From the NCBI GenBank assembly GCA_012798265.1, contig JAAZNM010000001.1:62001-126000 (forward strand): DNA of 64,000 nt, given 5' to 3'. Source of the stretch: Candidatus Roizmanbacteria bacterium. Lineage in GTDB: Bacteria > Patescibacteriota > Microgenomatia > UBA1406 > GWC2-37-13. Of this stretch, positions 56,421 through 57,936 are shown in pieces (positions within the stretch are counted from its first letter, which is position 1; every line of letters begins with the position of its first letter). Made by a program: the position numbers and the translations under genes. Under the pieces are notes generated by a model. It was not told the origin of the DNA, made no database searches, and saw only the letters and a program-made list of their open reading frames with translations.

Positions 56421-57936
56421 TTTTTTTAAGAGTTTGATCCTGGCTCAGGATGAACGTTGGCGACGTGCCTGAGATATGCAAGTCGAGCGTTTCTTGATCG
56501 CAAGATCAGGAGAGCGGCGGACGGCTGAGTAATGCGTAGGTACCTACCCCTAGGTGAGGAATAGCCCCGAGAAATCGGGGGTAATACCTCATAGTCCCCG
56601 CCTTTGGCGGGGTAAAGGACATAACTGTTCGCCAAGGGATGGGCCTTCGTCCTATCAGGTAGTTGGTAGGGTAACGGCCTACCAAGCCTATAACGGGTAG
56701 CTGGCCTAAGAGGGTGGTCAGCCAGAGGGGCACTGAGATACGGGCCCCACTCCTACGGGAGGCAGCAATCAGGAATAGTCGGCAATGGGCGAAAGCCTGA
56801 CCGCGCGACGTCGCGTGTAGGAAGAAGCTCTTCGGAGTGTAAACTACTGTGATAAAGGAAGAAGTCCCGCTTATGGCGGGATTGACGGTACTTTATTAGA
56901 AAGGGGCCGCTAACTGCGTGCCAGAAGCGTCGGTAACACGTGGGCCCCAAACGTTATCCGGTTTTACTGGGTGTAAAAGGTAGTGTAGGTGGTTCGATGA
57001 GTTTCGGTTTAAATACAAAGGCTCAACCTTTGGAGAGGCCGAAATACTATCGATCTAGAGTTTTTTCAAGGGAGACTGGAACTCAGGGAGGAGTAGTGAA
57101 ATGCGTTGATACCCTGGGGAACACCAGTGGCGAAGGCGAGTCTCTGGGAGAAAACTGACACTGAGACACGAAAGTTAGGGGAGCGAAGCAGATTAGAGAC
57201 CTGCGTAGTCCTAACTGTAAACGTATGACTGCTAGCTGCATGTCCTGACTTTTGTCACGACGTGTGGCGAAGGTAACCCGTTAAGCAGTCCACCTGGGGA
57301 GTACGGCCGCAAGGCTAAAACTCAAAGGAATTGGCGGGGAGGCACACAACCAGTGGAACATGTGGTTCAATTCGAAACGAAACGAAAAACCTCACCAGGG
57401 TTTGACATCTCAGCGTCCTATTTTGCAGAAATGCAAGAAATTCGTAAGAAGGCTGGGACAGGTGCTGCATGGCTGTCGTCAGCTCGTTCCGTGAGGAGTG
57501 CCCTTAAGTGGGACAACGAGCGCAACCCCTACCCTGTGTTAAATCTGTCACAGGGAACTGCTCCTGCTTTGCGGGAGAGGAAGGAGGGGCAGACGTCAAG
57601 TCAGCATGGTCCTTATACCCTGGGCCACACACATGTTACAATGAAAAGCAACAACGGGTTTTGCTACCTAGCAATAGGAGGCAAATCCCTGAAATCTTTT
57701 CTCAGTGGGGATTGAGGTCTGCAACTCGACCTCATGAACACGGAATTGGTAGTAATCGCGGATCAGTCACGCCGCGGTGAATACGTTCTTGCCTCTTGCA
57801 CACACCGCCCGTCAAGCCAACAAAGTCGATGTTATCTGAATCCTGGCGTAAGTCGAGAGAAGATAATGTCGGCGATGGGGGTTAAGTCGTAACAAGGTAG
57901 CCGTTCTGGAAGGAGCGGCTGGATCACCTCCTTTCT
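56421..57936 (+). rRNA. rrs: 16S ribosomal RNA
   Basis: Full-length 16S of about 1.51 kb, ends approximate. The 27F site AGAGTTTGATCCTGGCTCAG is intact, and the 3' end has GGATCACCTCCTTTCT with a normal anti-Shine-Dalgarno. The 530 region reads GTGCCAGAAGCGTCGGTAA (56918-56936) in place of GTGCCAGCMGCCGCGGTAA, with compensating changes. The 787-806 region reads ATTAGAGACCTGCGTAGTCC. GC palindromes CCCCGCC/GGCGGGG (56596-56612) and CCCGC/GCGGG (56866-56880) cap variable helices. Flanks 56393-56406 and 57983-57997 form a processing stem. No intron. No tRNA or 23S follows. Confidence 0.97.

Follow-up and report, generated by a model that had tools for sequence, protein, structure and literature searches.

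The 530 loop of 16S rRNA helps to read the codon and is among the least variable stretches of rRNA. The locus described here raises the question of why one bacterial 16S gene carries other letters at the base-paired positions of this loop, and what the exchange means for the ribosome. The gene lies in a stretch of 64,000 nucleotides (the window) from a Candidatus Roizmanbacteria genome, at 56422..57934 of the plus strand, to which all features below also refer. It matches the Rfam bacterial SSU model RF00177 end to end, in sequence and structure (model positions 1-1533 of 1533, 1362.9 bits), and this single full-length copy is the sole 16S match in the whole genome (954,489 bases, rated 99.36% complete). 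An inverted repeat, with arms of 23 nt at 56382..56404 and 57986..58008 that are 87% complementary, flanks the gene and is a probable processing stem. The rRNA genes are unlinked: the 23S gene (3196-6081), directly preceded by tRNA-Ala (tgc), resides about 50 kb from the 16S gene, and the only 5S match of the genome is on another contig (G000:C4:50805-50922, G000 being the window genome). The closest named 16S belongs to Roizmanbacteria (86% identity), and the 16S tree places the window in a 16-row family clade (support 100/99) of Candidatus Roizmanbacteria, class Microgenomatia.

Helix 18, the stem of the 530 loop (E. coli positions 500-545), was located at 56903..56948 by alignment to E. coli rrsB (L107), which provides the numbering used throughout. 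The loop at 56918-56936 reads GTGCCAGAAGCGTCGGTAA. The bacterial pseudoknot formed here, reportedly described by Powers and Noller in 1991, pairs 505-507 with 524-526 and 521-522 with 527-528. Strand 505-507 (56908..56910) is CGC in the window and GGC in E. coli, strand 524-526 (56927..56929) GCG and GCC, respectively; the resulting pairs C505-G526, G506-C525 and C507-G524 are accompanied by G521-C528 and by A522-U527, made by residues 56925 and 56930. The helix 18 fold is thus the bacterial one, with pairs 506-525, 507-524, 521-528 and 522-527 kept and every loop pair intact, but A522-U527 stands in place of C522-G527, and C505-G526 in place of G505-C526. The alignment to the Rfam model, full length over the gene, runs through the loop without gaps and with high posterior probability. 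A sequence-only reading of the window had given letters, positions and pairings correctly, and had rightly stated that both changes preserve pairing. To our knowledge the canonical letters are near-universal outside CPR; the comparison made here is against E. coli alone.

The same loop is found in relatives, where the sequence-only reading had suggested looking for it. An exact scan for GTGNCAGAAGCGTCGGTAA over a contig database described as 84,980 species returned 58 stretches; 50 align as 16S and all 50 carry C505-G526 and A522-U527, and the remaining eight have no 16S match. By their titles, one of the 50 named records is Woesebacteria, one Nealsonbacteria and one Parcubacteria, the others being labelled Roizmanbacteria, Microgenomates, Patescibacteria group or plain 'bacterium'. 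The loop is readable in 23 of the 27 genomes of the family, the window's included, and among the matches listed all 23 carry the window's four letters. The pair exchange is real and inherited in the window's family. A faulty assembly, contamination or decay of the 16S copy might be suspected, as the named kin of the window are mostly metagenome assemblies, but the chance that this accounts for the loop is negligible: the 23 family genomes and the 50 named records, all of the latter with the same C505, rule it out, and the window holds one full-length copy, bordered on both sides by the inverted repeat, in which no loop pair is broken. The claim that neither sequencing error nor decay is involved therefore stands.

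Loop variation was surveyed in 281 genomes of the class by a loose pattern in which 522, 523, 526 and 527 were left free and up to 3 mismatches were allowed. The pattern matched in 181 genomes; the other 100 gave no match, their 16S being absent, split or more divergent. Because the genes were found by the loop itself, loops that are strongly altered or interrupted by an intron escape the counts; A505 is slightly disfavoured, and most other loop letters are named by the pattern, so that their constancy is partly built in. The counts that follow refer to 155 genome-drawn 16S sequences, the window's plus 154 loop-bearing stretches (L108-L261) chosen across families inside and outside the class; six further stretches checked as odd hits (L262-L267) include no 16S.

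Positions 522/527, both free in the pattern, are A-U in 75 and C-G in 80 of the 155 sequences, and half-changed in none. The 506/525 pair is G-C in 120, A-U in 33 and C-G in 2, and is never broken. Pairs 507-524 and 521-528 are invariant, a constancy partly due to the pattern, which names those letters. The 505/526 rung is far more varied (U.C 74, G-C 28, C-G 20, U-A 15, G.A 7, C.U 7, A-U 4). It lacks a standard pair in 88 of 155 sequences, and departs from the bacterial pseudoknot in much of the class as U.C, G.A or C.U; in the family of the window C-G is found in 16 of 16 tree rows. The description of both swaps as compensatory consequently holds for 522-527, which changes only as a pair, and is not forced for C505-G526, since the rung it occupies is often non-standard in the class.

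A pattern for the odd loop hit 41 genomes in the phylum. Sixteen are class genomes, hit at the sites of their class-survey 16S matches; 12, all outside the class, were retrieved and are 16S sequences with A-U; five (G590, G568, G530, G484, G429) share their 19-mer with verified kin; two (G605, G617) have a canonical 16S elsewhere in the genome; six proved on retrieval not to be 16S, and were dismissed as chance pattern matches. In one assembly (G365) two 16S genes differ in type, a 5.7-kb contig having C522-G527 and a 320-kb contig A522-U527 (G365:C8/G365:C10); the 5.7-kb contig may be foreign.

The order of the changes was reconstructed on a 16S tree made with IQ-TREE, from which columns 500-545 were excluded; its 159 rows are the 155 genome-drawn sequences, 3 named ones and E. 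coli. The 522/527 pair changes 19 times on this tree, 505/526 22 times and 506/525 10 times. The 19 changes compare with 48-62 when labels are shuffled (50 shuffles), and fall to 15 after removal of 16 rows that are long, short, odd or possibly foreign. As reconstructed on these trees, the pair is shown to have switched some 15-19 times in the sampled Patescibacteria. On the reduced tree 12 independent contrasts lie on well-supported branches, and in all 12 of them 522 and 527 change together (p = 0.0005), as expected of a compensatory replacement with 0/155 intermediates. Around the window, C505-G526 is found in all 16 rows of its family (f1) and in all 4 rows of the sister family f2, two of which have C522-G527 at the other pair, within an A-U clade. 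Two more sister families, f3 and f21 (one row each), combine A522-U527 with U505.C526. On the evidence of f3 and f21 the two swaps are not one joint compensatory event, a correction to the sequence-only reading. A522-U527 looks older than C505-G526, for which the tree supports a separate and more recent origin in the ancestor shared by the window's family and f2, most simply from a U505.C526 mismatch.

Three of the named records (L017, L039 and L040; Nealsonbacteria, Parcubacteria and plain 'bacterium') form a distant clade with 100/100 support, beside G289 and G304. As they carry the window's four letters, these arose at least twice on the tree; the combination of C505-G526 and A522-U527 in the three records is, on this tree, a convergence.

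Residue 527 is a modified base in other bacteria, where RsmG (GidB) makes m7G527 according to the accessible parts of two sources (PMC7550191, PMC6522004); a third, also available in part, reports rsmG in <10% of CPR and >90% of other bacteria (PMC12641178). The window has a U at 56930, at the same nucleotide position beside uS12, and this base cannot be m7G, as had been pointed out. The search of the genome suggested at the same time was made, and no TIGR00138 (rsmG) match was obtained in G000. Its one PF02527 match, at G000:C5:199321-199680, scores 19.9 bits against a cut-off of 27; a hidden rsmG was discarded here, the match falling in a 290-aa methyltransferase ORF that adjoins acyltransferase-like and glycosyltransferase-like ORFs (roles read from the translations). 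The window thus differs from 16S genes of the m7G527 type in its base, and its genome has no rsmG over the cut-off; the organism would accordingly not produce m7G527, whatever base occupied that position.

Of the 281 genomes of the class one has a TIGR00138 match above the cut-off, and of the 379 of the phylum 29 have one; in each search 9 of the 14 control genomes passed. Weaker matches, in another 43 genomes of the class and 65 of the phylum, are presumed to be other methyltransferases; 'no rsmG' here means none over the cut-off, and many of the assemblies are incomplete. The loop is readable in 22 of the 29 rsmG-bearing phylum genomes (not in the other 7), always with C522-G527; with the class genome added, the count is 23 of 23. 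The only class genome over the cut-off (n=281), G123 (L091, G123:C6), has C522-G527 and an rsmG ORF of 213 aa on a 178-kb contig; this gene may be retained, regained or a contaminant.

In the tree set, rsmG-bearing rows comprise 15 C-G and no A-U, rows without rsmG 65 C-G and 75 A-U. When kinship is counted, 3-4 informative independent pairs are left, all in the expected direction and not significant (p 0.125-0.25); L261, one of the rsmG-bearing rows, sits on a long branch whose placement is uncertain. The direction of the data fits the view that RsmG holds G527 in place, short of proof. C522-G527 persists in 65 of the 140 rows that lack rsmG, so the loss of RsmG may make the swap possible but does not bring it about.

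In E. coli the methyl of m7G527 sits in a pocket with uS12, beside the methylthio-aspartate of that protein (PMC7550191, available in part). Mature residues 41-50 and 84-94 of uS12, the loops close to the decoding site, show no change matching the swap, and are nearly alike in 25 rows with A-U and 22 with C-G; one of the 25 A-U rows is mostly gap, and 3 of 25 C-G genomes were dropped as no ORF passed the motif filter. Co-change of these uS12 loops with the 522-527 pair was rejected on these grounds. Frequencies differ between A-U and C-G genomes at sites 73, 105, 113 and 116 (counted from the start Met), differences read as kinship. At residue 87 (E. coli mature numbering), which is linked to streptomycin resistance, K gives way to R or P in some genomes with A-U and to P or Q in some with C-G. 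RimO, the enzyme of the uS12 methylthio mark, passed the cut-off in one genome of the 80 chosen, and another 51 have weaker, methylthiotransferase-like matches; as the cut-off was passed by only 6 of the 14 control genomes, this is a weak absence, and RimO matches do not separate A-U from C-G among the 80 genomes. The m7G527 and the uS12 methylthio mark are probably both absent in the window's group.

How the letters at 522 and 527 came to change may be read in other ways. U527 might have come first, rendering RsmG useless, the gene being lost afterwards. In agreement with this order, rsmG passes the cut-off in none of the A-U rows; yet the order is very improbable, because rsmG is below the cut-off across the class, G527 lineages included, and in 350 of 379 phylum genomes, so that most losses of the gene cannot follow from U527. 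Nor was it U527 by itself that deprived the lineage of m7G, and base change and enzyme loss do not match one-to-one, which corrects the sequence-only reading: in the class, 280 of 281 genomes are without an rsmG above the cut-off, including some in which G527 is kept.

Selection on the two replacements, for altered decoding or for a block to streptomycin-like drugs, is a second alternative to relaxed constraint. Streptomycin contacts C526 and G527 (PMC10525438), and loss of m7G527 confers low-level streptomycin resistance (PMC7550191), as stated in the available parts of both papers; the recurrence of the window's combination in the distant clade of L017, L039 and L040 points the same way. Selection of this kind is nevertheless unlikely, as the 522/527 pair appears to flip in both directions, C-G being found in 2 of 4 f2 rows inside the A-U clade, and the uS12 loops remain unchanged with the state of the pair. 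Flips both ways and unaltered uS12 loops make 522/527 look like drift between equivalent pairs. As the exchange of C-G for A-U keeps the shape of the pair, unchanged decoding is the simplest inference: the decoding centre presumably works as usual, with at most weak effects, as in bacteria losing m7G527.

We hold with good confidence that the window encodes a functional 16S rRNA of a Roizmanbacteria lineage, whose 530-loop pseudoknot underwent two natural, structure-keeping replacements, position 527 being relaxed without RsmG. The replacement of C522-G527 by A522-U527 happened repeatedly in Patescibacteria, the two bases in the sample always changing jointly, and by the tree C505-G526 was added later and separately in the ancestor of the window's family and f2. 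With RsmG gone, 527 would mainly need to pair with 522, and the pair could drift between C-G and A-U with the fold unchanged. In this sample the swap occurs repeatedly in Patescibacteria, always as a pair and only where rsmG is not over the cut-off, and this pattern provides an explanation, open to testing, for some of the conservation of the 530 loop.

A broader proposal is more tentative, and we rate it as somewhat doubtful: that m7G527 and the uS12 methylthio group together lock C522-G527 across bacteria, and that the lock was freed in most Patescibacteria, which have no rsmG and probably no uS12 mark, the third rung of the pseudoknot becoming non-standard in much of Microgenomatia. If true, CPR would be a natural experiment on the reasons for the strong conservation of the 530 loop, and their decoding accuracy and streptomycin response might be different. 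CPR ribosome features are reportedly treated in the journal RNA (2022). In the open-licence literature, mostly judged by title and the start of the abstract, no description of a recurrent 522-527 swap in CPR was found; already published, in sources available in part, are the rarity of rsmG in CPR (PMC12641178) and the primer mismatch of Microgenomates (PMC5644168).

The loop coincides with the site of primer 515F (56918..56936), to which the window has 3 mismatches, as it has to 515F-Y; the 806R site (57192..57211) has 2 mismatches to 806RB and 3 to the older 806R, and the E. coli control has 0 for every primer. All 16 family rows have 3 mismatches to 515F-Y; to 806RB 15 have 2 and one has 3. 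The mismatches put forward by the sequence-only reading are therefore borne out in silico. Its warning that surveys may miss the lineage is sound as to the primers and not new, since many Microgenomates would be missed by 515F/806R according to the accessible text of PMC5644168. Both works concern mismatches to the 515F/806R pair; that text scores primers by lineage and leaves the pair swaps unnamed, whereas the bases that make the window's family a poor match to 515F/806R are now named.

The 806R mismatches are partly due to changes in the region of the 790-loop stem (57188-57190 and 57202-57204). Pairs 783-799, 784-798 and 785-797 are G-C, C-G and A-U in the window, C-G, A-U and G-C in E. 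coli; the window also has U793G, and the stem swaps and this change are all common in the sampled CPR set. At 770/809 the window has U-A; all 15 remaining rows of the family have C-G, and the swap is unique to the window among the family rows. A966 is present in 110 of 144 sampled rows, window included. E. coli G966 carries m2G, made by RsmD, and with A966 standing for G966 a second modified base is replaced in the sampled group.
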